A stretch of DNA of 64,000 nucleotides from Prevotella melaninogenica (GTDB lineage: Bacteria > Bacteroidota > Bacteroidia > Bacteroidales > Bacteroidaceae), in contig NZ_CP072347.1 in the NCBI RefSeq assembly GCF_018127925.1, positions 2,501 to 66,500 of the forward strand. Direction: 5' to 3'. Below, one piece after another: positions 1 to 17,470 of the stretch (positions are counted from its first letter, which is position 1; the number at the start of each line of letters is the position of its first letter). The position numbers and the translations under genes are program-made. Under the pieces are notes generated by a model. It saw nothing but the letters and a program-made list of their open reading frames with translations. It had not been told where the DNA came from and ran no database searches.

Positions 1-895
1 ACCTCTTATGGAAATCGTCGCACGCGGCACCTAAATGCCTTTCGGGGAGTACGAGCTATCTCCAAGTTTGATTGGCCTTTCACTCCTACACTCACCTCAT
101 CGGGAAGCTTTTCAACGCTTATCCGTGCGGTCCTCCATCCGGTGTTACCCGGACTTCAACCTGGGCAAGTGTAGATCACTTGGTTTCGCGTCTACCCCAT
201 CTGACTCGACGCCCTATTCAGGCTCGCTTTCACTGCGGATGCGCGTCTCATGACGCTTATCCTTGCCAGACATGGTAACTCGTAGGTTCATTATGCAAAA
301 GGCACGCCGTCACCGCTTACGCGGCTCCGACCGCTTGTAGGCGCATGGTTTCAGGAACTATTTCACTCTCCTCATCGGAGTGCTTTTCACCTTTCCTTCA
401 CAGTACTCGTTCACTATCGGTCTCACGGGAGTATTTAGCCTTACCGGATGGTCCCGGCGGATTCGCGCAGAATTTCACGTGTTCCGCGTTACTCAGGATA
501 CCACTACGTCTCGTCATGCTTCGAATACGGGATTATCACCCTCTATGATTGTTCTTTCCAGAACATTCTTCTCACAATCTAAGTACGACAGCGTGGTCCT
601 ACAACCCCTGCTAAGCGTTGCCACAAAGCAGGTTTGGGCTATTCCCCGTTCGCTCGCCACTACTAGGGGAATCATTATTTATTTTCTCTTCCTAAAGGTA
701 CTAAGATGTTTCAGTTCCCTTCGTTCGCCTCACTACGTCTGTAGTGATAACAGGTCTTCAACCTGCTGGGTTGTCCCATTCGGAAATCCTTGGATCAAAG
801 GTTATTTGCACCTACCCAAGGCTTATCGCAGCTTATCACGTCCTTCATCGCCTCCGTGAGCCAAGGCATCCGCCATGCGCCCTTTCTTACTTTCT
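1..895 (-). rRNA. 23S ribosomal RNA, 5' part (runs off the left edge)
   Basis: Read on the minus strand, the segment ending near 895 contains the conserved 23S 5' start, including the GGCGGATGCCTTGGCTC-type block (complement at about 858-880) that opens domain I. The strand, order and spacing after the 16S gene fit an rRNA operon transcribed leftwards. Only about 895 nt are present. The exact mature 5' end is estimated from alignment by eye and could be off by several bases. Short ORFs over this stretch are not genes. Confidence 0.95.
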
Positions 896-1310
896 TCGCC
901 TTCTCTGTAATTGCTTACAAAGAATGTAGCTCATACTTTCAGCTGTTGTGTGATTCTAAAGAATTTGAAGTTGTTTCTTCAATAATTAGAATGCTAATTC
1001 TTCCCATTATAGAAAGAATAGTTCTACATTACAGTCTTGCTTGTGTCAATATGTCAAAGATCTTATGCTGTTGCTCTGTGTATTCTGAGGCAGTGCCTCA
1101 GAAGCAGAAGACAGCGAAGTGGAGAATAAGGGCTTGAACCTTTATGTGAGCCTTAAACTCTAAACTCCTACATTTATATAATACAGAGTACAGTGAGTAC
1201 AAGAAGAAAAACGAACCAAAGGTTCTTTTATTTATCTTGATTACCGTTAACTTCTTGACTTGTATACTTACATACTTATCAACTAAATCAACTAATAAGC
1301 GAACTCTCCA
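896..1310 (-). other. 16S-23S internal transcribed spacer without tRNA genes
   Basis: About 415 nt between the 3' end of 16S and the 5' end of 23S. I looked for tRNA-Ile and tRNA-Ala, which commonly sit in Bacteroidetes spacers, and saw no cloverleaf or TTCGAATC-type T-arm. The spacer holds a perfect hairpin at 1085-1101 (CTGAGGCA/TGCCTCAG), a boxA-like GATCTTTGACAT at 1051-1062, and a short GAACC/GGTTC hairpin followed by a T-rich run (minus strand, about 1205-1225) that resembles a weak terminator. Confidence 0.85.
1051..1101 (-). promoter_or_regulatory. Candidate rRNA antitermination signal (boxB-like hairpin and boxA) in the spacer
   Basis: On the minus strand a perfect stem, CTGAGGCA with TGCCTCAG (1085-1101), is followed about 22 nt later by GATCTTTGACATATTG (boxA-like, about 1047-1062), which resembles the TGCTCTTTA core of bacterial rRNA boxA. 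The same hairpin core and spacing recur in the 16S leader. Function as a nut site is inferred from position and resemblance. Confidence 0.5.
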
Positions 1311-2843
<1,533 letters not shown>

Positions 2844-3174
2844 AAATATGTTTTGGTGATAAGTGATAGGTGATAAGTGATAATGAATACCATGTTAACC
2901 CAAACGCTTCACCGAGTAATCTCTGTTTCAGAACGCTTATCCTAAAAGTATCAAGTAAAAAGCACCTTTTCTTTTGTTCCTTAATTATTTTGAGGCGGTG
3001 CCTCAAAAGTAGGGACAACGAATTGATCGGTTCGTTTCTTTTACCCATCCATTTGATATAAAACCAAACAGACGCTTCTTGTACTACTTCTCTGTTTATG
3101 TAAATCTTTTCAAAGAACTCTTTCTTTAACCGCTTTAAGCAACTTGCCAGGTGGCTTGTTTTGTAAAGCGAGTG
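2844..3174 (-). other. rRNA leader with boxB/boxA-like signals
   Basis: The leader between the promoter and mature 16S is about 325 nt. It carries the hairpin TTGAGGCACCGCCTCAA (complement at 2989-3005), followed downstream by a TGCTTTTTACTTGAT boxA-like stretch (complement at 2950-2965), the same order as in the 16S-23S spacer. Close to 16S (2868-2884) there is a tandem GGTGATAAGTGATA repeat. It could pair with GTTGATAAGT after 16S to form a processing stem; that pairing is inferred. There is no gene here. Confidence 0.55.
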
Positions 3175-3206
3175 CAAAGGTATAGACTTTTCGTGTAACC
3201 TCCAAA
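3175..3206 (-). promoter_or_regulatory. rRNA operon promoter
   Basis: The minus strand has TACCTTTG (complement 3175-3182), a match to the Bacteroides -7 consensus TANNTTTG, and TTTG (complement 3203-3206) as the -33 element, with a 20-bp spacer. An A/T-rich block lies directly upstream (about 3210-3245) like an UP element. Transcription would start near 3168 and read through 16S and 23S. Confidence 0.8.
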
Positions 3207-3388
3207 TGTTTTGAAGGAAAATTTTATCAAAAAAGTGTTTTTTCTTCGTTAGAGAGAAGATAAACCCTATTTCACCTTATTATATATATAAGACCATGAT
3301 AAAACTTTTTTGTAATCACATCACTATGAGTAATCCCCCTTCAAGGTACTCAACCACTCACAAAAGAGACTTATAACACCCCATTCAC

Positions 3389-6259
3389 TTATTCTTTAAA
3401 CGATTTTATCAGATGCCAAGCCTCTCTAACCCATAAGACTAAAGAGGAACCAATCAAGATAATTGCCCAATCCTCAACAGATAATCCACCCTTAACGATA
3501 TTAAAGAACTTTTGCAGAATAGGAAGTTCCACCATCGCAATTTGTCCTATAAAGATAATTGAGATAATAAAGAGCAATCCACGACATCCCTTGAAATGAA
3601 GCGCACTCCGTCCAGTTTCAAAAGCACGCGCATTGAACAGATAGAAGAAATGCGTCATTACAAAGATAGTAAAAATCAAAGTCAACTCGTATGGGCTAAG
3701 TCCATTAACCTCACCAAGCTGCAAATGAAGAATATCTCTCAATGCAGTAATATCAGCATGTTCGAAGATATAAAGCAATACCAACAGCAGCACAAAGAAG
3801 AAACCACCCACACCAATGATATTCCAACCCATAGAACGATTGATAATAAAGGCATTCCTATCACGTGGACAGTCCTTCATCACCTTCTCTGATGGAGGCA
3901 AAGAAGCCAACGCCATTGCCGCAAAGGTATCCATAATAAGATTTACCCACAGCATCTGCGTTACTGTCAGCGGAGACTCCGTACCCATAAACGCACCAGC
4001 AAGTACGAGGAAACAAGCTGCAACATTGACGGTTAGCTGAAAGAGTAAGAAACGTTGTATATTCTGATAAAGCGAACGTCCCCACATCACAGCCTTCCCA
4101 ATACTACTAAAAGAGTTATCGATAATCGTAATATCCGAAGCCTCCTTAGCAACAGAAGTACCATCACCCATCGAAAGTCCCACATGTGCCGCTTGTAACG
4201 CAGGTGCATCGTTGGTTCCATCTCCCGTAACAGCTACCACCTCATTACAACGTTGCAACGATTCCACAAGACGTTTCTTATCCAACGGACGAGCGCGAGA
4301 GATAATCTTCAGATCCTTCACACGCTTATCCAATTCATCATCAGAAAGCGCAGCAAAGTCAGGACCACTTATAATATTCTTATCCGTATCACTACTTGTC
4401 CACAAGCCAATTTGTCTACCAATCTCCTTAGCCGTCCTTGCGGTATCTCCAGTTACTATCTTCACGTCAATACCCGCCTTCATACATTCAGCGACAGCCT
4501 CAGGCACATCACTTCTCACAGGGTCGCTAATTGCGACAATACCCTGGAACGTTAGATTATCAGCGACAACTCTTCCCTCCTTAAAGACCTCCGCTTTACC
4601 ATCTACAATCTGATAAGCAAAGCCCAACGTTCGCATAGCCTGCTCTTGATAGTCTTCCAACTGATGCTCAATCTCCTCTTTCGGCACATTGCAATCAGTT
4701 TGTTTGCAAAGGCCATAGACAATCTCTGGCGCACCCTTCACATAGAGAATCTGCTTACCTTCTATCAAAGCAGAGTTGACAAGCACTGCCATATACTTCC
4801 GTTCTGTGGTAAAAGGAAGCTCATCAATAACCTGCACAGCCTCTCTCAGTTCCTGATAAGAAACCTGATTATCCTTCAACCAAAGAAGTAATGCACCTTC
4901 AGTAGGGTTACCCAAAACCTTAAGATTACACGCATCGGTATAATCTATTGAAGCAGTAGAATTGACAGCTATCCCCTCTTTCAACAAACAAGAAGCAAGA
5001 CCATCATCTAATGCCTGATTAGCTAAAGCATAGAATTGAGTTTGATAAACACGCATCTGGTTCTGTGTCAGCGTACCCGTCTTATCCGTACAGATAACCG
5101 TTGTAGCACCCATTGTCTCACAAGCATGCATCTTACGTACAAGATTATTGGTCTTCATCATTCGGCGCATACTATAAGCCAAGCTCAATGTCACAGCCAT
5201 AGGAAGACCTTCTGGCACTGCAACAACAATCAATGTAACAGCAATCATCATTGTATTCAGCACATGAGAAAGCAATCCTGCCATACTCTTATCGGGCATG
5301 AGGCAATCATGAAAAACTATCACACACGCCATCAAAATACAGAAATAAGCAACAGTGCTGATTGTTTTCGAATACCACTTCCAGCCATCAAACTTCCTGA
5401 TAACAAGCCAAAAGAAGATGATAGTAGGAATGGTTAAAGTACAAACAATAGGACTCCAATGGAAAAACACCATTAATCTACCTACAATGATAAGTCCTGC
5501 AAAGACATAACTTAGTTTCGTAATAAGCACACTCAGTCCATCAAGTTGCTCACTAAGAGGTGTTTTAACGCTATCATCAATTTGTGCAGCCTCAAACACC
5601 TTACCATTTTCTGTCCTATCGCCTACAGCCTCAACCTGAAAGATACCATGCCCCTCCATTACCTTCGTACCACGTAACACCTGGTTCGTAGCGTATGAAG
5701 CATCCTTTTCAAACTCCTCCTCTTTTACCGATTTATAAGCAGGTACGCTCTCTCCATTCAGTGTAGACTCATCAACATGCAATGAGATTGCCTCCAACAA
5801 CCTACCGTCAGCAGGAATCTCAGCACCTGTATTGATAATAACAATATCGCCAACTACAATATCTTTTTTAGCAACAGTCGTTGTATTTCCATTTCTGATG
5901 ACCTCCACCTCCTCTTCATCGTTCACTTGATTGAGGATAGCAAACTCTTTATCCGCTTTTAATTCAAAGAAGAAAGCAATCGTCATAGCCAAGAAGATAG
6001 CGAGGAATATACCGACTGGTTCGAAGAAAACGGCTGTGCCATCTTCAACATGAAGGCCCCAATACTCCCAACAAGAGATAGCAATAGAGAGAAAACCCGC
6101 AATAAGCAGAATAATAATCAGTGGGTCTTCAAACTTTTCCAAGAACTGTTTCCATAGTGGATTCTTCTCTCGGGGCGTTAGCACATTAGCCCCATATTGC
6201 TCACGACTCTTCAACACCTCTGTGTCAGTCAATCCTTCATAATGTTTCTTTTGCTTCAT
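3389..6259 (-). CDS. Calcium-type P-type ATPase (P2 family)
   Basis: A 956-residue membrane pump that would use ATP to export Ca2+ (or a similar cation) from the cytoplasm. The N-terminal cation-ATPase domain (about 1-80) is followed by the actuator domain with LNGES near residue 170, the PEGLP ion-site motif in TM4 near 350, the phosphorylation motif DKTGTLT at about 392, TGDGTNDAP near 680, and six C-terminal helices. Length and motif order fit the eukaryotic PMCA/SERCA-like bacterial group; exact ion selectivity cannot be read by eye. It stands alone, downstream of its own promoter (TAACTTTG, complement 6383-6390) and converging on nothing; the rRNA promoter begins shortly after its 3' end, on the same strand. 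Confidence 0.93.
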   Translation of the reverse strand: MKQKKHYEGLTDTEVLKSREQYGANVLTPREKNPLWKQFLEKFEDPLIIILLIAGFLSIAISCWEYWGLHVEDGTAVFFEPVGIFLAIFLAMTIAFFFELKADKEFAILNQVNDEEEVEVIRNGNTTTVAKKDIVVGDIVIINTGAEIPADGRLLEAISLHVDESTLNGESVPAYKSVKEEEFEKDASYATNQVLRGTKVMEGHGIFQVEAVGDRTENGKVFEAAQIDDSVKTPLSEQLDGLSVLITKLSYVFAGLIIVGRLMVFFHWSPIVCTLTIPTIIFFWLVIRKFDGWKWYSKTISTVAYFCILMACVIVFHDCLMPDKSMAGLLSHVLNTMMIAVTLIVVAVPEGLPMAVTLSLAYSMRRMMKTNNLVRKMHACETMGATTVICTDKTGTLTQNQMRVYQTQFYALANQALDDGLASCLLKEGIAVNSTASIDYTDACNLKVLGNPTEGALLLWLKDNQVSYQELREAVQVIDELPFTTERKYMAVLVNSALIEGKQILYVKGAPEIVYGLCKQTDCNVPKEEIEHQLEDYQEQAMRTLGFAYQIVDGKAEVFKEGRVVADNLTFQGIVAISDPVRSDVPEAVAECMKAGIDVKIVTGDTARTAKEIGRQIGLWTSSDTDKNIISGPDFAALSDDELDKRVKDLKIISRARPLDKKRLVESLQRCNEVVAVTGDGTNDAPALQAAHVGLSMGDGTSVAKEASDITIIDNSFSSIGKAVMWGRSLYQNIQRFLLFQLTVNVAACFLVLAGAFMGTESPLTVTQMLWVNLIMDTFAAMALASLPPSEKVMKDCPRDRNAFIINRSMGWNIIGVGGFFFVLLLVLLYIFEHADITALRDILHLQLGEVNGLSPYELTLIFTIFVMTHFFYLFNARAFETGRSALHFKGCRGLLFIISIIFIGQIAMVELPILQKFFNIVKGGLSVEDWAIILIGSSLVLWVREAWHLIKSFKE

Positions 6260-6382
6260 AATAATCTTAGCAAGTTTATTTAGATGGACTTAATCCTATC
6301 CTACAATTAATAAGTAGATAGCAGTTCCTTTCACTAATTCCTAATCCTTTCATAACTTTATCAACTTTGATATATCTGTTTG

Positions 6383-6390
6383 CAAAGTTA
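6383..6390 (-). promoter_or_regulatory. -7 promoter element for the calcium ATPase gene
   Basis: The minus strand reads TAACTTTG, matching the Bacteroides -7 consensus, about 125 nt upstream of the ATPase start. No good -33 match is visible at the expected spacing. Confidence 0.5.
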
Positions 6391-6585
6391 CAAATAATCT
6401 GATTATTATCTGCATTTCTGTAACTTACAAATCATAAAATCATGTATTTCTTAATAAAATTCTGAAGTCATTAGTTCTAAACGATACCCACTCTCCTATT
6501 CTTTTCCTATCCTTTTAGTATTATTGTCATCCCAATACATATATGTTTTTGCGAAACTTAATCATAATGCTATGAATATTGCATA

Positions 6586-6729
6586 GAAACTATGGTAAAG
6601 ATAATAAACTTATGAGGAAGAAAAAATAATGGAGGAAAAACATTATTCAAGCAAAAATATCACGTTAACATAAGCAATAAACTATCATTATTTAACTTAA
6701 TAAACATTTGCTATCATACCATTTACCAA
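6586..6729 (+). repeat. Direct repeat copy A (downstream flank of the accessory block)
   Basis: About 144 bp starting GAAACTATGGTAAAGATAAT and ending CATTTACCAA. It aligns along its whole length, in the same orientation, with 10844-10993. By eye the identity is about 75-80% with small indels. Copy B is the natural upstream region of the DUF438 gene; copy A has no gene of that kind after it. The rest of the 6260-6800 gap is AT-rich and, apart from the ATPase promoter, I see nothing in it. Confidence 0.85.
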
Positions 6730-6800
6730 GAACACCGTAGCCTCAAACTGAAAGACTTTTTCTCAATAGCCATGCCGTTCCTTCTTTATAAAATTTTCCT

Positions 6801-7601
6801 TCACTTTGAAGGTTTCACGGCAACAACAGAAAACAGCAATGGTATCTCGCCATTCTTTCCTGCGACTTTGAATGTTCCATTCTTTTCAGCAGCCATATTC
6901 CCAAATAGGTTGAAAGGTGAGTAATCATACTCCCCGAAAGACTGGACCTGTAAGTCATTATTGAGCAAACCATTCAGCACTACAGCTAACCCATGATTCC
7001 ACGTAACGGTCTTTTGCCGATTGTCATTTTCCGAATCAGTGTAGGTAGATTCTTCCACAATGTAAGGCTCTTTGCGTGAATAAGCATATCGGACTTGCGA
7101 GAATTCTTCATTAAACATCCACAATATGGGATGGAATTCCACGATAACAAACTTTCCACCGTCTTTCAGCGTTTGTGAAATTACTTGTCCCCATTGGATT
7201 AAGTCTGGCAACCAATTAACTACACCATAAGATGTGTATACAATGTCGAACTTCTGCCCTTTCAACATAGTAGGCGCATCATAGATATTGCAGCAACAGA
7301 ATTGTGCATTCAGCCCTAACTCCTCATTCAACGACTTTGCTGTTTGTATAGCCTCTTCCGAGAAATCCACACCAACGATATTAGCTCCCATCTTTGACAG
7401 GGAAAGCGTATCCATGCCGAAATGGCATTGAAGATGCAGAATAGACTTTCCTCGAACATCTCCTAATAGAGACAAATCCAAGTCAGGAACAGACTTTACC
7501 TTTCTTTTAAACTTGTCCAAGTCGTAAAATGAAGAATACAAATGAATTTTTGTTCTTGCATTCCACGCTTCTTTGTTTATCTTATAATAATCTTCCATCA
7601 T
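6801..7601 (-). CDS. Class I SAM-dependent methyltransferase
   Basis: A 266-residue Rossmann-fold methyltransferase of unknown substrate. Motif I is recognisable as the LHLQCHFGMDTLSL stretch, followed by NIVGVDFSEEAI, where the acidic residue would bind SAM ribose. I chose the ATG at 7601 (MMEDYYKINKEAWN) because the longer frame to 7670 overlaps the HXXEE gene and adds an unlikely N-terminus; this start leaves a 7-base gap to that gene's stop. It is the last gene of the six-gene leftward block. Related proteins act on small molecules; nothing here fixes the substrate. Confidence 0.85.
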   Translation of the reverse strand: MMEDYYKINKEAWNARTKIHLYSSFYDLDKFKRKVKSVPDLDLSLLGDVRGKSILHLQCHFGMDTLSLSKMGANIVGVDFSEEAIQTAKSLNEELGLNAQFCCCNIYDAPTMLKGQKFDIVYTSYGVVNWLPDLIQWGQVISQTLKDGGKFVIVEFHPILWMFNEEFSQVRYAYSRKEPYIVEESTYTDSENDNRQKTVTWNHGLAVVLNGLLNNDLQVQSFGEYDYSPFNLFGNMAAEKNGTFKVAGKNGEIPLLFSVVAVKPSK

Positions 7602-7608
7602 GTATTTC

Positions 7609-8142
7609 TTATTTATTACCCTTCTCCCAACGTTGAAACCTATCCATAAAGAAGAATGCAGAAAACACACTTAGTATGGTAAGCACAATACCAATAACTG
7701 CCCATAAAACCATTTGTGAGAAGGATAGAACTGTTACTTTTGAGAATTCAACAAAAGAATAGATGCAGTAAGGCAATGTTAGGAGGCTTGTAATGATAAC
7801 TGGCACATACTTTCGATATACAATCCACTGTACGATATGCATTAACAAGTGAACGGAATATCCTGTCAATGCAGCAAACCACCATTGATATTGACCTGTC
7901 CAAACCGAGCAAAACGAAACAACAGAAATAAGTATGAACTCGTGAGCAGTACCAACGGCAAAGGTAGAAGTGGAATAATCAAAAGATCCTTGTCGAGTAA
8001 AAAACGATTCTATTTTAGGGAATCGTTTTCTCAATTCTTCCCTATTTCTGTCAATCCAACGCCTAAACATAATAATTTCCTCGTAATCATGAACCATAAA
8101 CACGAAAGGAAGAAGCATCATTATTAAGTTTATTTTTGCCAT
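7609..8142 (-). CDS. HXXEE domain membrane protein
   Basis: A 177-residue integral membrane protein with the defining HDYEE (HXXEE) motif at about residues 18-22 inside the first hydrophobic segment, then a basic stretch (FRRWIDRNREELRKRF) and about three further membrane segments. The family has no established biochemical role; the conserved His/Glu set suggests metal binding or hydrolase chemistry in the membrane, which is speculation. It lies 15 bases downstream of the GNAT gene and 7 bases upstream of the methyltransferase, so the three are probably co-transcribed. Confidence 0.8.
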   Translation of the reverse strand: MAKINLIMMLLPFVFMVHDYEEIIMFRRWIDRNREELRKRFPKIESFFTRQGSFDYSTSTFAVGTAHEFILISVVSFCSVWTGQYQWWFAALTGYSVHLLMHIVQWIVYRKYVPVIITSLLTLPYCIYSFVEFSKVTVLSFSQMVLWAVIGIVLTILSVFSAFFFMDRFQRWEKGNK

Positions 8143-8157
8143 AATTTCTCTTTTTAT

Positions 8158-8718
8158 TTATTTCAAACTACCATACTGTTTCTTCCAATCCTCTAAAGTG
8201 ATTTTAGTAAAATGTTCTGTGCGAACCTCATTTAACAGTGGAACAGGCTTATTATCTTCTGTATGACTGTAAACAAATCCGCATTTCTCTTGTGCTCGTT
8301 TCGATTTCTCGTTGCCATCGTAGTACCCACACCAAACTGTAGTTTTCCCTAAATCCTCAAACGCATACCGAAGCAATTCGTTTACGGCTTCGGGTATCAA
8401 GCCTTGTCCCCAATAGGGTTCACCAATCCAATAACCTATTTCACACTCATTGTCTGTCATTTGTGCGCTTTTGATTTCACTTCTTGCAGTCATTATTCCA
8501 ACGCTGCCGACAGCTTCACCAGTTTCTTTCAACACAACTGCATAGGTTTCAGGAGCAGAGAGTACTGTTTTTATAATTTCACGACTGTTCTCTACACTTG
8601 TATGTGGTGCCCAACCAGCAATCGGACCAACGTTTGGATTCTGTGCATACTTGTATAATGCTTCAGCATCGCTTTCTTTCCATGCTCTCAATAGCAGGCA
8701 TTTTGTTTGTAGTTCCAT
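8158..8718 (-). CDS. GNAT family N-acetyltransferase (RimJ/RimL-like)
   Basis: A 186-residue acetyltransferase. The N-terminal TKCLLLRAWKESDAEALYKY is typical of the RimJ/RimL-type GNAT fold, and the acetyl-CoA region IGYWIGEPYWGQGLIPEA (about 95-113, Q/R-x-x-G-x-A type loop) is intact. Such proteins acetylate ribosomal protein N-termini, antibiotics or other amines; the substrate cannot be assigned. It is in the middle of the accessory block, 60 bp downstream of the ClbS/DfsB gene. A GGAAGATAAGAAAAAAG purine-rich stretch precedes the start. Confidence 0.85.
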   Translation of the reverse strand: MELQTKCLLLRAWKESDAEALYKYAQNPNVGPIAGWAPHTSVENSREIIKTVLSAPETYAVVLKETGEAVGSVGIMTARSEIKSAQMTDNECEIGYWIGEPYWGQGLIPEAVNELLRYAFEDLGKTTVWCGYYDGNEKSKRAQEKCGFVYSHTEDNKPVPLLNEVRTEHFTKITLEDWKKQYGSLK

Positions 8719-8778
8719 ACTTTTTTCTTATCTTCCACGTTTCTTTATTAGCCTTATTATAAGATTTCTATTGTTTGT

Positions 8779-9312
8779 TTATTGTGTTTTAATATGTACT
8801 TTTATTTTCTTTATCGCCCAATCATAATGGCTTGAAGTTGCTGAAACACTATAAGAACCAAGCGTAGAGGTACCCGTCCAATCGAATATGCCCTTGTTAA
8901 AGAGTTCGTTGTCAGAGAAAGTTGCAATCAATTCCATTACTTGTTGATGGCTTTCTTTTAACATTGCCTTTGCATCTGATAGCGATGTGTTTTGATGTTT
9001 CTTCCAAAACTCCACGTTCATTACTGGATATGTTTTCCAATTATAAGGCTCAGGAAGAAAAGATTCGCATTCTCCCTCACGATTGGAGTTTATCCAATTC
9101 AGTAACAACTGATGCCATTCATACAGATGAATAAGTACATCGCGCAGATTTTTGTCCCTGCTCCAATGTGCTTCTTTGCCCATTGCAGCCATTTTTTCTG
9201 CAAAGGTTGCTGTCTGTAGCTCTTCGCTCATACTGTCTATGAGCTTCCACATCTTCTCAAATTGTCCATTAGCAGATGTTATTAAATCCACTTTTGTTGT
9301 TGCTCGTGCCAT
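8779..9312 (-). CDS. ClbS/DfsB family four-helix bundle protein
   Basis: A 177-residue cytoplasmic helical protein. MARATTKVDLITSANGQFEKMW and the later LRDVLIHLYEWHQLLLNW are characteristic of the ClbS/DfsB (DUF1706) family. ClbS protects colibactin producers by opening the cyclopropane warhead, and relatives are found in many non-producers, where the role is unknown. No pks-type cluster is visible nearby, so self-immunity to colibactin is not implied. The gene sits 8 bases downstream of the kinase-DUF3781 stop, a tight operon arrangement. Confidence 0.8.
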   Translation of the reverse strand: MARATTKVDLITSANGQFEKMWKLIDSMSEELQTATFAEKMAAMGKEAHWSRDKNLRDVLIHLYEWHQLLLNWINSNREGECESFLPEPYNWKTYPVMNVEFWKKHQNTSLSDAKAMLKESHQQVMELIATFSDNELFNKGIFDWTGTSTLGSYSVSATSSHYDWAIKKIKVHIKTQ

Positions 9313-9320
9313 TGTTTTTT

Positions 9321-10133
9321 TTATATTTTATCAGTTGAAATAACTCTGAATGTACAAGAGTTAACGGTGATACGGATATGTTCTGTATCATTAGTTATAT
9401 AATAGTTCTTTCCTTTTTTCAGGAAATGATTCGTATCTGTATGCATGATAATGTCTGAAATAAAACTTTCTATTTCTTGTGGCGATAGATAAAGTCCGAG
9501 CTTTCGGTTTATTCTGTCATACACAAATTTTGTATAACAGAGCTTTTCTATGATGGTTGCTTTCAGCGAATCGTCTATGCTTTCATATTCTTGACCATCT
9601 CCTTTTTGCGAAAGACTATCGGCAACCTTTTCTTTTAGTTCGGTTTGGCATTGTTTAATGGTCTTTCCTGCTGTGTCAATGATGATGCGGTTTTTGTGCC
9701 ACTCGTGATATTCTCGGTTTTCGATGTCGTCCCACACAGGGAGATTCATATTTGCTACTTCTGTACTTCTCTGTTCTGCACGCTTTTTGTGTTCTTTCTT
9801 ATCCGAACATATAACCTCAATATTTACAAAACGACAGTTGTTATTAACAGCAACCTCTTCCCATTCTTGCCTTGTCAGTTCAATAGGGTTACAACAATCA
9901 GCCACGACATTGTTGCCCAATTGCAAATTGTCGGCTGCCATACGATATGCCAACCGATAGCCTTCTCCCTCAACATTGATACGACACAAGTCTTTCAAAC
10001 CTTGTTCAATGGTATCAATGCGCAGATAAACAGCTCCAAACTCTTTTACTAAAAATCTTGCAAGTGTGGATTTGCCAACTGCTGGTAGCCCAGAGAAAAT
10101 AAAAAGAATGGCTTTGCCCATTGTAATATTCAT
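9321..10133 (-). CDS. P-loop kinase fused to a DUF3781 domain
   Basis: A 270-residue protein. The N-terminal part (about 1-165) is an AAA/zeta-toxin-like nucleotide-binding kinase with Walker A GLPAVGKST and a later acidic RIDTIEQ region. The C-terminal part (about 190-270, from DSLKATIIEKLCYTKFVYDR to VISTDKI) looks like DUF3781, which usually occurs as a small stand-alone protein. I chose the ATG at 10133 because it overlaps the stop of the HEAT gene as ATGA, suggesting translational coupling; the longer frame to 10211 lies inside that gene. An ATG at 10121 is the alternative. The phosphoryl acceptor is unknown. Confidence 0.75.
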   Translation of the reverse strand: MNITMGKAILFIFSGLPAVGKSTLARFLVKEFGAVYLRIDTIEQGLKDLCRINVEGEGYRLAYRMAADNLQLGNNVVADCCNPIELTRQEWEEVAVNNNCRFVNIEVICSDKKEHKKRAEQRSTEVANMNLPVWDDIENREYHEWHKNRIIIDTAGKTIKQCQTELKEKVADSLSQKGDGQEYESIDDSLKATIIEKLCYTKFVYDRINRKLGLYLSPQEIESFISDIIMHTDTNHFLKKGKNYYITNDTEHIRITVNSCTFRVISTDKI

Positions 10134-10744
10134 TTTAGCAGCTTGGCTGCAAGTTTGTAAGTAAACGAAATTCGAGGATTGGATAAATCCCATCGTTCCA
10201 CTTCCTGCCACACCAATTCTGCGTGCTTCTTGCTTATATCTCTTAAAGCATTTCCTACGGATTTCCGAAGATATTCGCTTTCGTATGCCTTATGCTTAGC
10301 AATGAGAGCAATAGCCACCGATGGATTTTCTTTGAAATACGGGCGACTTGTCCAAATCCTCAGTCCCTCAGTTACAGCACGGATAACATTTGGATTATCG
10401 TCTGTTATCCATTCTTCTATGAGAGGTAAAGAAACTTCATACCCTCTATGTCGGCAAACCTCATCGAAAGCCTTTGCAAGCATTTCCTGCACTCGCCAAT
10501 TCTCATCAGTGCTTACTCGCTCTTTCAGAAAACGAAGTGCGTTATTATCTTCTGTTGCCAATCTGCCTAAAATCGTTGTTGCCAACATTCGGGCTTGATA
10601 GGCTTCGCGCTTTAACAATTCAAGAGCAAATTCAAAGCACTGTTCCTTTGAGTATGTCGAAAGGATTCCATCAGCACCATCAATAATATGCTGAAAACCA
10701 TGTTCTATTAACAGTATTTTGTTCAAGACATTATCTATCCCCAT
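10130..10744 (-). CDS. HEAT-repeat protein resembling AlkC/AlkD DNA alkylation repair enzymes
   Basis: A 204-residue all-helical protein made of HEAT-like repeats. The segments ARMLATTILGRLA, WRVQEMLAKAFDEV, NPNVIRAVTEGLRIW and EYLRKSVGNALRDISKKH match the pattern of AlkC/AlkD-type DNA glycosylases, which remove alkylated bases without base flipping. Catalytic residues cannot be confirmed by eye, so DNA repair activity is a family-level inference. It is the first gene of the six-gene block, preceded by an SD-like AGAAAGGG, and overlaps the next gene by ATGA. No Bacteroides-type promoter is evident upstream. Confidence 0.7.
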   Translation of the reverse strand: MGIDNVLNKILLIEHGFQHIIDGADGILSTYSKEQCFEFALELLKREAYQARMLATTILGRLATEDNNALRFLKERVSTDENWRVQEMLAKAFDEVCRHRGYEVSLPLIEEWITDDNPNVIRAVTEGLRIWTSRPYFKENPSVAIALIAKHKAYESEYLRKSVGNALRDISKKHAELVWQEVERWDLSNPRISFTYKLAAKLLK

Positions 10745-10843
10745 TGTTATAAACCCTTTCTAAGATAAATCATATCTACAAGTTATATATACCCTTCGAA
10801 AATTAGAAGGTCATATTTGTCCGTGAAAAATGATCTATCCAAT

Positions 10844-10993
10844 GAAACTATGGCAAAGATAATAAATTATGAGGAAGAAAAGAAATGATAGAAGGGGAAA
10901 CATTAATCAGCCAAAAACATCACATTAATTTAAGCAATAAATTACCATTATTTAACTTAACATGGTCACATTTGTTATCTTACTATTTACCAA
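10844..10993 (+). repeat. Direct repeat copy B (upstream flank of the accessory block)
   Basis: About 150 bp in the same orientation as 6586-6729, from GAAACTATGGCAAAGATAAT to CTATTTACCAA. It lies directly upstream of the DUF438 promoter, so this copy looks like the native one. Confidence 0.85.
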
Positions 10994-11001
10994 TAACTCA
11001 G

Positions 11002-11009
11002 TATCTTTG
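11002..11009 (+). promoter_or_regulatory. -7 promoter element for the DUF438 gene
   Basis: TATCTTTG matches the Bacteroides -7 consensus and lies 32 nt upstream of the ATG. The nearest TTTG upstream is too far (about 27 bp) to be a standard -33 element. Confidence 0.55.
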
Positions 11010-11041
11010 CATTAGAAATAATAAAAATCAGTAACAAAGTT

Positions 11042-12580
11042 ATGGCAAATAAGATGAAAGACTTTCTCCCAGCAATTGAGATGGAGAAAATGCAGGCAAT
11101 GCTTGAGCTTGAAGAAAAGTATGAAACAGGACAGCTCTCATTAGAAGAGGCACGCGAAGTGATGAAGACAAAGGTAGGAAAGATTCGCCCTTATCACCTT
11201 GCCTTCATCGAACAGAATATGAAGTCGCGTGAGGACGACGAGTGTATCCGTGCAGACATGCGCAAGATTATTGAACTCGTTGAAGGTTTCATGGACTACA
11301 GCCGTCCTGATGTACCAGAGGATCACCCACTCTCACATTATTATAAAGAAAATGACGAGATGCGAAGACTGCTCCTTGCGGTCGAGGATCTTGTACAATA
11401 TCCTGTCATTAAAAACCAGTGGTTAGAACTCTACGACCAGATTCGTCAGTATCCTATTCACTATCACCGTAAGCAGAATCAGCTCTATCCACTTTTGGAG
11501 AAGAAAGGATTCGACCGCCCAACGACAACAATGTGGAACTTTGACGACATCGTTCGTGATGAGATTAAGGATTCACTCCGACTCTTAGAGGCTGGCGAAG
11601 ATGAAGCTTTCATCACTAAACAAAATGAGCTTATCGCCTATGCACGCGACTTGATGGAAAAGGAGGAGACTATCCTCTACCCTACTTCATACGCCCTTAT
11701 CTCTGCAGAGGAGTTTGAAGATATGAAGTCGGGCGACCAAGAGATTGGTTTTGCCTTCTTCAAAGTAGACACACCATCAACACCCAACACTCAACACTCA
11801 ACACCTCAAAAGGGCTTTGCAGAAGACCTGCAGGCATTGCTCAGCAAGTATGGCTACTCTGCAGGACCACAGCAGGAGTTGGATGTGGCAACAGGTAAGC
11901 TGACCTTAGAGCAGATAAACCTTATCTATAAGCATCTGCCAGTAGACATCTCATTCGTGGACGAGAACGAATTGGTGAAGTTCTATTCAGATACCGACCA
12001 TCGTATCTTCCCAAGATCGAAGAATGTTATCGGGCGACAGGTGTCTAACTGCCACCCACGTAAGAGTGTACACATCGTTGAGGAAATCGTAGAGAAATTC
12101 CGTAGTGGCGAACAAGATAAAGCCGAGTTCTGGATTAACAAGCCAGAAGTATTTATCTACATCGTTTACTTTGCTGTGCGCGATGCAGAAGGCCGCTTCC
12201 GTGGCGTACTCGAAATGATGCAGGACTGTACACATATCCGTGAGTTGACAGGTTCACAGACCTTGCTGACATGGGCTGGAAAAGAAGAGGAAAGTACTGC
12301 AAACACTACTCCTTCTGACAATGAGGACGACGAAGCGTCTGCTGCACAATCAGGCGCTCCTATTGAGATAACACCAGACACCCGTCTGAAAGACCTCTTT
12401 GCAGCTTATCCTAATCTGAAGAAAGAACTTGCTTCTCGCTATCCATCTTTCAAAATGCTAAACACACCATTGGGTAAGTTGATTCTCAAGAAAGCTACTG
12501 TCCGCACCGCTTCAGAGCGTTCAGGATTAGGCGAAGAGAAGTTTATCAATTTACTAAAGGAGTGCATCAAAGACGCCTAA
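11042..12580 (+). CDS. DUF438 / hemerythrin / PAS / DUF1858 protein
   Basis: A 512-residue cytoplasmic protein with DUF438 at about 8-75, a hemerythrin-like HHE domain at about 85-215 (HPLSHYYKENDE, HYHRKQNQLYPLLE, EKEETILYP), a PAS domain at about 285-405 (VDISFVDENELVKFYSD to DCTHIREL), and a C-terminal DUF1858 domain at about 438-510. Such proteins are thought to sense oxygen or NO through a di-iron site and redox state through PAS, but the target is unknown. A position often Glu in the HxxxE motif reads Gln here (HRKQN), which may alter metal binding. The linker before PAS contains an intergenic-type repeat. A terminator follows. Confidence 0.85.
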   Translation: MANKMKDFLPAIEMEKMQAMLELEEKYETGQLSLEEAREVMKTKVGKIRPYHLAFIEQNMKSREDDECIRADMRKIIELVEGFMDYSRPDVPEDHPLSHYYKENDEMRRLLLAVEDLVQYPVIKNQWLELYDQIRQYPIHYHRKQNQLYPLLEKKGFDRPTTTMWNFDDIVRDEIKDSLRLLEAGEDEAFITKQNELIAYARDLMEKEETILYPTSYALISAEEFEDMKSGDQEIGFAFFKVDTPSTPNTQHSTPQKGFAEDLQALLSKYGYSAGPQQELDVATGKLTLEQINLIYKHLPVDISFVDENELVKFYSDTDHRIFPRSKNVIGRQVSNCHPRKSVHIVEEIVEKFRSGEQDKAEFWINKPEVFIYIVYFAVRDAEGRFRGVLEMMQDCTHIRELTGSQTLLTWAGKEEESTANTTPSDNEDDEASAAQSGAPIEITPDTRLKDLFAAYPNLKKELASRYPSFKMLNTPLGKLILKKATVRTASERSGLGEEKFINLLKECIKDA

Positions 12581-12632
12581 AGTGGGCTTATCACTCATTG
12601 TGTAACAGGTTGTTTCTCAATAGAATCTCTTT

Positions 12633-12661
12633 AGGATGCACATTTCGTGCATCCTTTTTTT
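12633..12661 (+). terminator. Rho-independent terminator after the DUF438 gene
   Basis: AGGATGCAC pairs with GTGCATCCT around a five-base ATTTC loop, followed by a run of seven or eight T. It lies about 50 nt after the stop codon. Confidence 0.85.
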
Positions 12662-12663
12662 AT

Positions 12664-13044
12664 GGTTCTTCCGAAATATGGAGTGATAAAGTAAGCCTAT
12701 TACATATTAAAAGGCACACAGAGAGGGGGAGAACACGGAGGTGAATGCACAGACAATATCACGGAGGTGCCGAAGGCATAAAGAGCGACAGAGGCGTAGT
12801 GTACGTATTGCTGATAACTTTGGTAATAAACATTTTAAGAAATCTTGCAAAGCACTGCTTTGTAATAAAGTAGACAAAAACATTAATAAAACTCGCAAAT
12901 ATCCTCTGTTCCTCCACGCACCAACGGTGCCTCTGTGTCTAACGATTGCTACTATATAAAACCTCCGTGTTCTCCATTTCTCTGTGTGACCTTTTTTCAA
13001 AGTTTTAATCTCAAAAGGTATCACTCCAAATTGCTGAATGCCCT
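12664..13044. repeat. Foldback element, copy 1
   Basis: An element of about 380 bp starting GGTTCTTCCGAAATATGGAG and ending AATTGCTGAATGCCC. The left half (CACACAGAGAGGGGGAGAAC, then GGAGGTGCCGAAGG and GACAGAGG) is the inverse complement of the right half (CCTCTGTTCCTCC, ACGGTGCC, CCTCCGTGTTCTCC, CTCTGTGTG), so the whole can fold back on itself. It matches 26553-26917 nearly throughout and 37395-37740 more loosely. ORFs inside it are by-products of the repeat. Confidence 0.85.
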
Positions 13045-13069
13045 AAAATATTACTATGACAAACACAAA

Positions 13070-13129
13070 AAAGTTCGCGAACAAATTCAAAAAAGTTCGC
13101 GAACTTTTTTGAATTTGTTCGCGAACTTT
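13070..13129. repeat. Perfect 60-bp palindrome with three TTCGCGAA cores
   Basis: The two 30-base halves are exact inverse complements, centred at 13099.5, with GTTCGCGAAC at the centre and again in each arm. It lies between foldback copy 1 and the broken small gene. As RNA it would form a 30-bp hairpin; as DNA it offers three identical dyad sites. A bidirectional terminator or a repressor binding site are both possible. Confidence 0.9.
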
Positions 13130-13165
13130 ACATTGAATATCTTAGACTGACGAATTGTGCCTTTA

Positions 13166-13419
13166 TTAATCCGCAGGAACAGGACCAGGATTTTCGTTCT
13201 TTTTCTCTGTCTTCTTTTCCGTCTTTGCTTTCTTTTCCCCTGGTGTCACCTGCTCAAAGGTAACATCGTTCAGCGTGAAATACTTACGAGAGGCAAGAAG
13301 TTTCACAACAGGCTTCTCAATGTGCTGCTGCGCACGAAACTGTTCGCCTTTCAAGACTGCCTTACTCTTAAACAAAGGAGTTGCTCTTTTAAGAAGAACT
13401 GGATTGGTTTATTTGCCAT
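13166..13419 (-). pseudogene. Small hypothetical gene with a probable one-base frameshift
   Basis: The minus strand opens with ATGGCAAATAAA at 13419 (MANK), then leaves frame. Adding one A to the AAA run at about 13408-13414 joins it to a continuous frame that ends at 13166, giving about 84 residues (TNPVLLKRATPLFKSKAVLK onward, with a Lys-rich tail ending NPGPVPAD). Without the correction the downstream frame has only a TTG start at 13375. I do not recognise the family; the charged C-terminal tail recalls small DNA-binding proteins but there is no firm match. A sequencing error cannot be excluded. Confidence 0.45.
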
Positions 13420-13537
13420 ATCATCTTTAAGGTGGTCTCTCTTTGTGACAACTCCGTAGGCTCGAAACCTTTTAGCCCACGGAGCGTTTGTTAATAATAT
13501 TATTGCTTGCTATAATATCCTCATTGACTATAACATT

Positions 13538-15484
13538 TTAGAAATGAATGAAAGCGCGTACCTTTGCTCTTACATCCGTTACTTGATTCCACATTTGTTG
13601 CCCACTTCGATATTGGATATAATATATACTCGGATAGCTTGTACCATCATTTCCACTCCAACCTAAACTAGGGCTAATGGTAATTAGGTCTGGGGAGACA
13701 GTTCCTGAGCTATTTTCAAAGGAACTAGTAAAATAATCCATGAAAGCACCATAACTATTAGAATTTTGACCTCCGACAAGTACACCATTATTGCTGTAAT
13801 GGGCAGTGAGTGCATAATTTAGAATTACTGGGTCAAAACGTCCACCACCTGCTGCACCTTTACCACCATTATAACTCCAACTATTATTAATCTGACCCAA
13901 ACACATAGCGTCCATAGCGATTCTCCATTCACCTGATGCAGGGAGATACCACTTCTGATTAGCAATAGTACCTGTTAAAGTAACACCTGGATCATAATGA
14001 GCGGCATAATAGAAAGCAGGGAAAGCCCATTGATTGTTCCCTTTGGGCTGACCACCAGGTGAGTCAGGCATTGCATTAGTCGTAGGATCCCATGTCCAGT
14101 TATATCCGTTCATGTCAGAGACATTGTCAGTAAGTCCTGACCCTAAGCGTAGAAAGTTTGTTGTCATATAAACAGGATTAGAGCCAGGGACACTATAAAG
14201 GCTTTGTGTTGTCCATTGACAATCTGTATTCTTCACATTGCCAGTAGAAGGCGACCAAGAACTACCTAAATCTGCTTCTTTCAAAGCAATAGCTACACCA
14301 GAGTTCGGTGTTCCGTCATTGTCTTTTACAACAAAGGCTATCGGAGTCTTGCTTCGATTAGCTTTGAGCGTTCCTACAGTGCCATCAGAGAATAGATATT
14401 TGAATCCCATATAGACAAGACGAATTTTGAGTTTGTAAGTTGTATTTTCTTTGGTAACAAAACCTGAGAGAGCAGGATCTGTAGAATAAAGATGTGTACT
14501 TGGTGCAGCTGTCTTTCCGTAGAGCGTCAGTGAAGGTAAATCTAGACGCATATGGCGAAGTGGAGTTCCAGGAAGGAACCATGTGTAAGTAGTATCTCTG
14601 TTGATATAGTGCCACTCCATGTCATTCTTAGAATCTTCAGCAGCAAAATATACTATATCTGTAGAGCTGCCATACATAAAATCCTGCCAAAAATTAGCCG
14701 TTAGCGTTTTATTAACAGTCGTAACAGATGTAGCAACAGGGTTATAACCTTTCTCATCAAGTTTTACGCTAGTAGGTACATTGTTGTTAGGTGAAGTGAG
14801 CGTTGCACTGACAGCATGCTTTATAGGGAGGAAACTATGTAACTCAAGATATACGCGCGAACCAACATGCTTCATATAGAACGAAATATATTGAGTTTTG
14901 CCTGTGACATAAGTATTATCCAAACGTCCTACGTATGCAGTCTTCACATTTGCTTGTGTTACAGAAAGTGTCCCATCAGAATTCTGGCTTAGTTTGTCAT
15001 TGAAACAAACAAAGTCGTAATTCTGATTTGGATCAAGAATAATACAATCCTTTGAACCTGTAGCAGGCGTAAAGACTCCATAGTTTATATAACCTTTCAT
15101 CTCACCTTTGAGTGTATTACCTTGAAAAGCACGGATAGTGTAGAAACCATTGCTTAAAGGTTGTGAGGCACGCGTGCGTGGCTTCTTGAAGATAGTATCA
15201 CTCTTGGCATCAGCCTCAAGAGTCATTTGTGCTTCAATACCATTACCTAAATCTACAGACTTTGTTTGAGGTGCTTCTGCAGCCCCTCTCGTTATGGCTC
15301 CATCATCTTCACTGAATGGTGCTTCTGCAAATTTAAGCATTGTTGGTGTTATGACCACCTTGCCGTTAGTACTTTCTCCTGTACTTATGTTATCTTCCTG
15401 CTGACAAGCAGCTGCCATAATAAGCAATACGGCGAAAGCAAGCGGTTTTAAAAACGTTTTCAATATTAAATAATTACTTTTCAT
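13538..15484 (-). CDS. Fimbrillin-like surface lipoprotein
   Basis: A 648-residue lipoprotein. The signal peptide ends in the lipobox AAAC (Cys27, followed by QQEDN). A Mfa/FimB-like fimbrillin region follows (about 30-370, with ITPTMLKFAEAPF and RASQPLSNGFYTIRAF), then a C-terminal region with WYLPASGEWRIA and ending DVRAKVRAFIHF, a pattern shared by fimbrillin-like and FISUMP-type proteins. It would sit on the cell surface, probably as a fimbrial subunit or tip adhesin. A 71-residue gene lies 41 bases upstream on the same strand; the probable promoter is farther up at 16149-16179, beyond the (AG)26 tract. No fimbrial usher or anchor genes are adjacent, so it may be an orphan locus. Confidence 0.7.
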   Translation of the reverse strand: MKSNYLILKTFLKPLAFAVLLIMAAACQQEDNISTGESTNGKVVITPTMLKFAEAPFSEDDGAITRGAAEAPQTKSVDLGNGIEAQMTLEADAKSDTIFKKPRTRASQPLSNGFYTIRAFQGNTLKGEMKGYINYGVFTPATGSKDCIILDPNQNYDFVCFNDKLSQNSDGTLSVTQANVKTAYVGRLDNTYVTGKTQYISFYMKHVGSRVYLELHSFLPIKHAVSATLTSPNNNVPTSVKLDEKGYNPVATSVTTVNKTLTANFWQDFMYGSSTDIVYFAAEDSKNDMEWHYINRDTTYTWFLPGTPLRHMRLDLPSLTLYGKTAAPSTHLYSTDPALSGFVTKENTTYKLKIRLVYMGFKYLFSDGTVGTLKANRSKTPIAFVVKDNDGTPNSGVAIALKEADLGSSWSPSTGNVKNTDCQWTTQSLYSVPGSNPVYMTTNFLRLGSGLTDNVSDMNGYNWTWDPTTNAMPDSPGGQPKGNNQWAFPAFYYAAHYDPGVTLTGTIANQKWYLPASGEWRIAMDAMCLGQINNSWSYNGGKGAAGGGRFDPVILNYALTAHYSNNGVLVGGQNSNSYGAFMDYFTSSFENSSGTVSPDLITISPSLGWSGNDGTSYPSIYYIQYRSGQQMWNQVTDVRAKVRAFIHF

Positions 15485-15525
15485 TCTTGATGTCTTTTTA
15501 AATTTATAACTCTCATTCTGTAATT

Positions 15526-15741
15526 CTAGAACTCTATTGTTCCACTCTCTACATCTTCACGTTTCCAATCTGTATCACTGGCATGAGCATCCCATCTATT
15601 CTCCTCGAAATAGGTGTTATTCTTTGGTTCAAAAGAACCTGACACTTTGTGGTAAACGGAAGTGCAGACAGGGCTTTCTGCCTCAACGAAGAATACGCAA
15701 CACGTTGGTTGTAAATAGTCTTGTTTCCTTGTTTTTTTCAT
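15526..15741 (-). CDS. Small hypothetical protein upstream of the fimbrillin gene
   Basis: 71 residues, starting MKKTRKQDYLQPTCCVFFVE and ending in an acidic tail (DWKREDVESGTIEF). The pattern KK-x-Y-x-x-P, a hydrophobic strand with Cys residues, then a polar/acidic C-terminus with WD is seen in many small Bacteroidetes proteins that precede surface-lipoprotein genes. Function is unknown. The ATG follows an AT-rich stretch with no SD. It shares the leader with the fimbrillin-like gene. Confidence 0.55.
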   Translation of the reverse strand: MKKTRKQDYLQPTCCVFFVEAESPVCTSVYHKVSGSFEPKNNTYFEENRWDAHASDTDWKREDVESGTIEF

Positions 15742-15914
15742 AATCTGCTTTTTAATAGTAAAATTTATCGCTTAAATATTTTATATTTCGGTTTAAATAA
15801 AAATACAAAAAAGAACAAAGGAAACTCCTAAAAGTCCTTTGTTTACCTATGATTGTACACGGCGAGCCTCGCGCGCGTACGCAAGAAATTAAAAAGTTGG
15901 TTAAGCCTGCTCTA

Positions 15915-16124
<210 letters not shown>

Positions 16125-16148
16125 CGTTATTAATCTCGAATTCGGACG

Positions 16149-16179
16149 CAAAAGTAACAAAAAAGATTAAAATATCAAA
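16149..16179 (-). promoter_or_regulatory. Promoter of the fimbrillin-like operon and leader ORF
   Basis: The minus strand has TACTTTTG (complement 16149-16156) and TTTG (complement 16176-16179) with a 19-bp spacer, a full match to the Bacteroides promoter consensus. No other convincing promoter lies between it and the fimbrillin gene. Confidence 0.7.
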
Positions 16180-16211
16180 GCAAATCAAGAAAAAAATAAA
16201 AACAACTATTT

Positions 16212-16349
16212 ATGAAAGCAACAGAAGTCGTAGAAAGATTAAAACAGCGTTTTCCAAATGAGCCAAAGTATATTCAGGCCGTTTCGCAGGTATTAGACAC
16301 TATCGAGAATGAATATAATAACATCTACTATGAATGTTTGAAAGCATAA
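16212..16349 (+). pseudogene. gdhA: 5' fragment of NADP-type glutamate dehydrogenase gene
   Basis: ATG 16212 opens 45 codons. The first 34 or so (MKATEVVERLKQRFPNEPKY and IQAVSQVLDTIENEY) closely resemble, as I recall it, the conserved N-terminus of the Bacteroidetes hexameric glutamate dehydrogenase (about 445 residues). After IENEYNN the similarity stops and TAA follows at 16347-16349. The rest of the gene is absent from this locus, so this is a truncated remnant or a partial duplication; a complete gdhA is expected elsewhere. It is divergent from the fimbrillin operon promoter. Confidence 0.75.
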
Positions 16350-16432
16350 TAAAAGATTTTAGGTTGTGTGCTCCTACAATGCACCTTTATTTTCAGCATT
16401 TTCATCCTAACTTATTAGCATCGATAAGCTAC

Positions 16433-16494
16433 GTGTTAACGCCTGCGCACCAACGGTGTGGAGCGTCCGCACCATTGGTGCGCAGGGTCAACAC
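16433..16494. repeat. GCACC-GGTGC palindrome pair, locus 1
   Basis: Two palindromes, GCACCAACGGTG (from 16447) and GCACCATTGGTG (from 16469), are exactly 22 bp apart and flanked by GTGTTAACGC and GGTCAACACC, which are inverted copies of each other. The same arrangement occurs near 39891 and 48381. Otherwise the 16350-16651 gap is empty. Confidence 0.75.
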
Positions 16495-16651
16495 CATTTT
16501 AATAGTGACTTTATGATGAGCATACTAATGAGAGAATCATGTTTGATTAGCGATTTCAGGGAATAGAGAATCTACCTCTTTATATCCTATCCGTATCCTT
16601 ATAATCCAGTATCGTTACCCCACTTGAAAAGCTATCTTTTACACTTCATTC

Positions 16652-16682
16652 TTGCAGGGTTCAAAGAAAATACGTACTTTTG
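16652..16682 (+). promoter_or_regulatory. Promoter of the DUF4738 lipoprotein gene
   Basis: TTGC (16652-16655) and TACTTTTG (16675-16682) are separated by 19 bp, matching the Bacteroides consensus. This decides the start at 16702, since the longer frame begins upstream of the promoter. Confidence 0.65.
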
Positions 16683-16701
16683 CGAACAAGAATCACGTAT
16701 T

Positions 16702-17304: not shown

Positions 17305-17307
17305 AAA

Positions 17308-17347
17308 GCCTCCCCCAACCCCTCCGAAAGGAGGGGAGCCCAAATAG
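17308..17347. repeat. C-rich palindromic repeat, copy 1
   Basis: GCCTCCCCCAACCCCTCCGA continuing to AAGGAGGGGAGCCCAAATAG. It is identical to 60068-60107 except for one base (A or G after CCCCC). The CCCCTCC/GGAGGGG core folds as a hairpin. From about 17395 to 17469 a short CAAAGTTCAAACCT-type tandem follows. Confidence 0.85.
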
Positions 17348-17470
17348 ATTAAAGTGGGGTACAGTGAAGTTGATAAATAGATAAGGATAAAACTCAAAGG
17401 TCAAACCTCAAAGTTCAAAGGTTAAACGCAAATCATAAAGTTCAAAGTTCAAACCTCAAAGTTCAAAGGC

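Follow-up and report, generated by a model that had tools for sequence, protein, structure and literature searches.

A horizontally acquired six-gene block between old direct repeats at the DUF438 locus of Prevotella melaninogenica

In a stretch of 64,000 nucleotides of Prevotella melaninogenica (RefSeq assembly GCF_018127925.1, contig NZ_CP072347.1, positions 2,501 to 66,500, forward strand; below, the window, numbered from its first letter) six leftward genes stand between two imperfect direct repeats, A on the left and B on the right, next to a gene of the DUF438 type. According to our analysis this is a real and old fragment, acquired horizontally, which is flanked by an unusual duplication and has probably undergone an exchange later on; it is ordinary in kind. 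As an overall explanation we consider it probable that a piece of an operon circulating among Prevotella species was captured beside DUF438 and took part in exchange afterwards. The foreign composition of the block, the high identity of its DNA to that of distant species, the fixed order of its genes and the site shared by three genomes were observed directly, as was the absence of the block from the DUF438 site of P. jejuni and of genome G334. Genomes of the genus are cited by G numbers (398 in the sample; G000 is the genome studied here) and fetched loci by L numbers (L133 belongs to G156, and L026 to P. jejuni).

Foreign origin of the block and age of its insertion

Block DNA was matched in 60 of the 398 genus genomes, the present one included, at E <= 0.001. 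Its main stretches are 89-95% identical over 1.9-3.9 kb to G329, G171, G100, G108, G146 and G232, and a separate methyltransferase piece in G146 is 87% identical. As a core-gene yardstick we used aroB, which was found in 19 of the 22 genomes tested (it was unmatched in G317, G192 and G389) and which in the same six species is only 65-70% identical, over 204 bp in G329 and 290 bp in G171. Because of this disparity the block is, as judged from its sequence, horizontally acquired, and the proposal of an earlier note on this DNA, that the block is foreign and comes from a mobile gene pool, is supported. In the sisters that carry the block at the same site the two measures are alike (94-96% for the block and 95% for aroB in G156, 93% and 92% in G170), and G334, which has the block elsewhere, is intermediate, with 94% for the block versus 82% for aroB. 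The comparison of the block with its neighbours, which the note had recommended, gave deviations in both properties: the guanine-plus-cytosine (GC) content is 38.4% versus a median of 44.3% and a minimum of 40.0% for host open reading frames (ORFs), with single block genes ranging from 36.0 to 41.1%, and the codon scores of four of the six block genes lie under the lowest of 21 host ORFs.

The repeats are same-orientation copies with 81% identity, differing by 19% in the best local alignment, and both had been ended about 10 bp too short on their right side in the note, whose statement that they align along their length holds otherwise: the alignment score is 160, against a maximum of 32 among 300 dinucleotide-preserving shuffles, and the best other stretch of the window not touching B scores 38 against A (the vicinity of A being excluded). 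BLAST of copy B against its own genome returned itself (E 1e-99), copy A (E 1.5e-35, 81%) and two short and weak matches of 35 and 52 bp, so that only the A and B sites match along the full length of the repeat. Among the 398 genus genomes a full-length match is limited to G000, G156 and G170; about half of the region is matched in G334 and short pieces in other genomes. The flanking repeats are about 155 bp of host DNA with no full-length match elsewhere in the genus sample, and the possibility that the repeat is itself a part of the mobile pool was rejected on this ground.

The repeats are real and, since G156 and G170 hold A (interrupted or shortened), parts of the block and B, they are old; a recent insertion is not supported. 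G156 has the order ATPase, A, block parts, B and DUF438, as in this genome, and its copy A is split by an IS66-type transposase element, which is bounded by terminal inverted repeats and has 8 bp of target duplication. What remains in G170 are ~37 bp from the start of A, both the GNAT and the HXXEE gene, short methyltransferase and kinase pieces, B and DUF438; left of copy A its fetched stretch reads N, and the ATPase is not visible there. Between this genome and G156 the copies A are identical at 220 of 221 aligned positions and the copies B at 267 of 271. A block at this very site between both repeats, which the note had named as evidence against its reading if found in all relatives, is present in G156 and G170, the two nearest genomes examined, and is not found in P. 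jejuni or G334. G334 has its block and its DUF438 region on different contigs, C1 (377588) and C2 (884171) respectively. As side observations, the transposase gene in the G156 copy A is at L133 7800-9278, and the G156 ATPase gene is represented by three ORFs at L133 9749-12619, reflecting either a broken gene or assembly errors.

P. jejuni comes nearest to the empty site with a single repeat that the note expected in relatives: it has one repeat copy at DUF438 and no block, but a reverse transcriptase-like ORF and other genes stand between ATPase and DUF438. Its B-like region lies directly upstream of DUF438 (local score 97, with a maximum of 27 in 200 shuffles), which supports the view that B is the natural upstream region of that gene, and between there and the ATPase a second copy was not detected (scores 23 and 28). 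The P. jejuni stretch L026 2499-8014 comprises, besides the reverse transcriptase-like ORF, a small accessory ORF and proteins whose C-terminal stretches are similar and look variable; this arrangement, known from its ORFs, presumably resembles a diversity-generating retroelement.

The note had also suggested that the block could be lost by recombination between the repeats. With a divergence of 19% and a longest exact run of 15 bp common to A and B an easy loss is not supported; loss by this route is possible in principle and looks unlikely because the shared run is so short. The gene losses in G156 and G170 are internal deletions and not products of A/B recombination.

The circulating gene pool and the ClbS tract

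Twenty loci, selected from the stronger block matches in the genus genomes, were fetched. At least two adjacent block genes occur in 15 of them (labels were given at 55% identity or more with gaps under 400 bp, and by cluster for the methyltransferase), while five contain separate block genes only. The order in all 15 is AlkD2, kinase-DUF3781, ClbS, GNAT, HXXEE and methyltransferase, with members often missing. Exceptions to strict collinearity are L164, which has further separate AlkD2 and HXXEE genes, and L167, with ~6 kb between the ClbS gene and the kinase gene downstream of it. Among 295 genomes of the order, five (this one and four others) matched the kinase-DUF3781 protein at E <= 1e-20; the matches in the other four, from four other genera, cover one half of the protein only.

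Tyrosine recombinases of one family are found in 8 of the 20 loci, and six of these eight have them as adjacent pairs; the two of L157 match Pfam Phage_integrase. VapE-like, Toprim/CHC2 and Mob_Pre proteins occur in some of the recombinase-bearing loci (one member per cluster was tested with Pfam), and a Mob relaxase cluster in two of the 20 (Pfam on one). In this respect the pool is like the cargo of Bacteroidales integrative or mobilizable elements, as some relatives of the block have tandem tyrosine recombinases nearby, together with VapE-like, Toprim/CHC2 primase-like and Mob_Pre relaxase proteins. Unlike such elements, the window copy is a fragment flanked by host repeats, with no recombinase, relaxase or element end. 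The absence of an integrase from the block, pointed out earlier, agrees with Phage_integrase being unmatched in all six block proteins; a hidden Markov model of the recombinase family of the relatives (c6/c8) gave no match in the ORFs of window positions 1-18000, and no relaxase or mobilization gene appeared among the eight locus proteins scanned. Block DNA was unmatched in phages and had only short matches in plasmids (1-9% of the query, 7 records). One array of the pool, in L169, has AbiEi- and AbiEii-type genes (6789-8479) directly upstream of its AlkD2-like gene, with recombinases in the fetched stretch.

The window copy looks like a piece cut from a longer array, with no unit ends of its own, because its right edge is a truncated acetyltransferase gene and its left edge a broken methyltransferase flank. 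The whole acetyltransferase gene is present in L173 (G389), where it matches Acetyltransf_7, and copy B begins within a few bases of the end of the remnant (~10830); in L161 and L172 the conservation of the methyltransferase 3' flank reaches to ~6754 and breaks there. Two other ideas on the organisation of the pool were set aside. Integron cassettes look improbable: the gaps between the six genes are 7, 15, 60, 8 and 8 bp, four of five being only 7-15 bp, less than a typical attC site needs, and adjacent genes keep a fixed order and are not shuffled. Single-gene modules had been suggested by edges of similarity at gene ends, which are expected anyway for copies 70-87% alike.

A part of the block seems to have a later history. 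The tract of ~1.04 kb with the ClbS gene and the 3' end of the kinase-DUF3781 gene has 5 mismatches in 1039 bp (99.5% identity) with G100 and G108, 6 in 1040 with G146, 18 in 1039 with G329 and 39 in 1040 with G171, and for 80-bp windows outside of it the identity to G100 and G108 is 76-98%. G156 and G232 lack ClbS and the kinase 3' end with an identical junction, and so does G170 with a difference of one base. On the simplest reading of these comparisons, ClbS and the DUF3781 end were probably regained by this lineage in one homologous import. It could instead be proposed that the ClbS version is ancestral here and that G156 and G170 each received the deleted version from G232-like elements, and the junction shared by G232 and G156 would fit with that. 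We find this doubtful, as it requires two imports and not one, and the tract is 99.5% identical to G100/G108, whereas the 275 bp at its kinase end that G156 has kept are only 88.8% identical to G156 and 91.4% to G232; the two long matching block stretches of G156 as a whole are at 94-96%.

Possible formation of the repeat-flanked block

We suggest that the block is a piece of an operon that circulates among Prevotella species, partly as cargo of integrative elements with tandem tyrosine recombinases, and that it was captured beside DUF438 in the common ancestor of this genome, G156 and G170. One end of the block would have been joined through homology in the DUF438 upstream region and the other through a short microhomology in the first DUF438 codons, so that the left copy, A, would be truncated and the right copy, B, intact. 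For the microhomology we refer to the left junction, where TGAAA (6749-6753) followed by GACTTT agrees exactly, over 11 bp, with DUF438 codons 5-8; a match of this length was reached in 5 of 2000 Markov simulations and in 4 of 1070 control stretches. A similar picture might also be produced by single-crossover integration of a circle carrying such a DUF438 upstream region. After the capture, copy B would serve DUF438 rightward and the block leftward, and the block would remain open to exchange: through homologous recombination with a different copy from the pool this genome probably recovered ClbS and the DUF3781 end. That the block arrived by recombination and thereby duplicated its target region, as the note proposed, is possible and unproven. 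Such an arrival is like homology-facilitated illegitimate recombination in that chromosomal direct repeats flank foreign DNA with a possible microhomology at one junction; unlike it, the event here is old and inferred. Duplications by alternative pairing of repeats are reported in a study of Streptococcus pneumoniae transformation merodiploids, where they measure about 100-900 kb (PMC3784515).

Could the block be the remnant of one site-specific integrative element that brought along a DUF438 upstream region for its attachment and whose integrase disappeared later? The tandem tyrosine recombinases near some relatives of the block speak for such an origin, and so does the fact that copy A ends at the rightward -7 box, the promoter being restored by copy B. 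We consider it very unlikely, however: outside of the three genomes that share the site the repeat region is unmatched at full length in the genus sample, and is in this unlike a part of the mobile pool; the right edge of the block cuts through an acetyltransferase gene; and an imperfect repeat of ~155 bp is far longer than usual attachment cores. Somewhat different is the idea of an older tandem duplication of the DUF438 region, with the block later replacing the body of the left copy, so that duplication and block would have separate histories. A and B differ from each other more than B does between species, and G010 of the genus has two DUF438-type genes, though on different contigs. This scenario is unlikely too, as copy A was found at this site in no genome that lacks the block, and only few bases remain of a possible left gene copy.

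Several points weigh against the capture of a circulating operon piece with later exchange, or limit it. Three of the six block genes, at 40.1-41.1% GC, fall within the low end of the host range. The divergence of 19% between A and B is only modestly above that between the copies B of this genome and G170 (13-15%), so that a duplication made simply on insertion would look the same as a pair with one copy of foreign origin. The left junction is a single 11-bp match, six bases of which are also in the block's own flank, and only TGAAA would be derived from DUF438. In 12 of the 20 fetched loci no recombinase of the tested family was found, other kinds not having been looked for, and so mobile carriage is shown for a part of the pool only. 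An otherwise identical empty site was found in no genome, the nearest, P. jejuni, carrying another insertion there. As to the ClbS tract, a few 80-bp G156 windows outside of it dip to 86-90% likewise, and the direction of the change is a matter of parsimony over three genomes.

Gene content, promoter motifs and putative function

The coordinates of the locus are collected in Table 1. The earlier description, six leftward genes between the repeats and of the families named there, was borne out by Pfam with a refinement for the first gene, which had been called HEAT/AlkC-like: the HEAT part stands, and the closest match is AlkD2 and not AlkC. Downstream of DUF438, at 13070-13129, there is a perfect 30-bp inverted repeat with no spacer.

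Table 1. Features of the block, its repeats and the flanking genes (window positions; "." marks no strand)
Feature	Positions	Strand	Basis or remark
P-type cation ATPase gene, left flank of locus	3389..6259	-	Pfam Cation_ATPase domains; same neighbour in G156 and P. jejuni
TAACTTTGC, Bacteroides-type -7 motif ahead of ATPase	6382..6390	-	pattern search
Repeat copy A, second copy of DUF438 upstream region	6586..6739	+	alignment to B; ends in rightward -7 box
Left junction	6740..6753	.	TGAAA at 6749-6753, then the block's first bases GACTTT
Foreign block	6754..10843	-	left edge, methyltransferase 3' flank; right edge, acetyltransferase remnant abutting B
S-adenosylmethionine (SAM)-dependent methyltransferase, 266 aa	6801..7601	-	Pfam Methyltransf_31/25/11; reading frame checked
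HXXEE protein	7609..8142	-	Pfam PF13787, 110.6 bits
GNAT acetyltransferase	8158..8718	-	Pfam PF13302, 104.9 bits
Probable imported tract, ClbS and kinase-DUF3781 3' end (edges approximate)	8684..9723	.	identity to G100/G108
ClbS/DfsB-family protein (DUF1706)	8779..9312	-	Pfam PF08020, 201.7 bits; PDB 6anr ClbS E 2.5e-9
AAA_33 P-loop kinase-like domain fused to DUF3781	9321..10121	-	Pfam
AlkD2-like HEAT-repeat protein, first gene of block	10130..10744	-	PDB 6m9m AlkD2 180 bits, AlkC 46, AlkD 17
Acetyltransferase gene 3' remnant and right junction	10745..10843	-	homology to about 10830; 83% to G389; whole in L173
Repeat copy B, DUF438 upstream region	10844..11003	+	alignment to A; homologue in P. 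jejuni
Leftward TATCTTTGC -7 motif facing block	10853..10861	-	~109 bp from AlkD2-like start codon
Rightward TATCTTTGC -7 motif of DUF438, lost in copy A	11002..11010	+	pattern search
DUF438-type gene	11042..12580	+	Pfam hemerythrin, PAS_10, DUF1858 (last below cut-off)

Copy B has in both directions a motif of the Bacteroides-type -7 consensus and may, as far as such motifs indicate, drive the block. The search for this motif gave 22 sites in the window versus 12.6 expected, a number reached by none of 100 shuffles. The leftward motif is conserved in the copies B of G156 and G170. Among the copies A, that of G170 has it unchanged; in this genome and in G156 it is altered. The note had seen no Bacteroides-type promoter ahead of the first gene, which is right for the full -33/-7 pattern (4 matches in the window, a number reached by 7 of 100 shuffles, and none in the repeats) and not right for the -7 motif, which faces that gene; because the full pattern is missing from the repeats, promoter activity is only inferred. 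A sigma-70 type scan predicted no more promoters in the window than in shuffles (15 vs 16.1).

Every NCBIfam family scored below cut-off for the block proteins. PADLOC, applied to five of them (GNAT was not included), returned only mad2 for the methyltransferase and, very weakly, VakA for the kinase, and a reading of the block as a defence system was given up on this result. Titles and abstract openings of the literature on its families, on ClbS in connection with mobile elements, on Prevotella integrative elements and on P. melaninogenica islands contained no description of the operon that we could find.

ClbS is a cyclopropane hydrolase acting on colibactin, and the block protein resembles the ClbS/DfsB family in its Pfam match and in its similarity to the ClbS structure 6anr (Table 1); it differs in being distant from E. 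coli ClbS, and the family is assigned by sequence alone. The AlkD2-like protein shares with its family, besides the strong match to 6m9m, a Glu and an Asn eight residues apart, as are Glu158 and Asn166 of SmAlkD2 (PMC4433238; by our own count), and it differs in being encoded here by the first gene of a travelling operon. The AlkD2 proteins of that paper are described as having no alkylpurine excision activity (PMC4433238). Taken together, the families of the block (AlkD2-like, ClbS-like, acetyltransferase, methyltransferase and kinase) point to repair and chemical detoxification, and the operon would probably encode a response to damage by small molecules, which is the weakest step of our explanation. 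Going further, one may imagine a coherent Prevotella operon against a DNA-damaging small molecule, carried by integrative elements in a preserved order, parked beside host promoters and repaired in place by mobile copies, with the near-identical ClbS segment of this genome, G100, G108 and G146 as a mark of recent spread; we regard this as a doubtful extension.

The locus presents a readable case of mobile cargo turning into ordinary Prevotella chromosome, with an old capture at a host promoter, decay in sister species and apparent recombinational repair. Should the operon indeed give protection from a genotoxin, a ClbS tract that is nearly identical in species with ~66% aroB identity would indicate a recent selective pressure.

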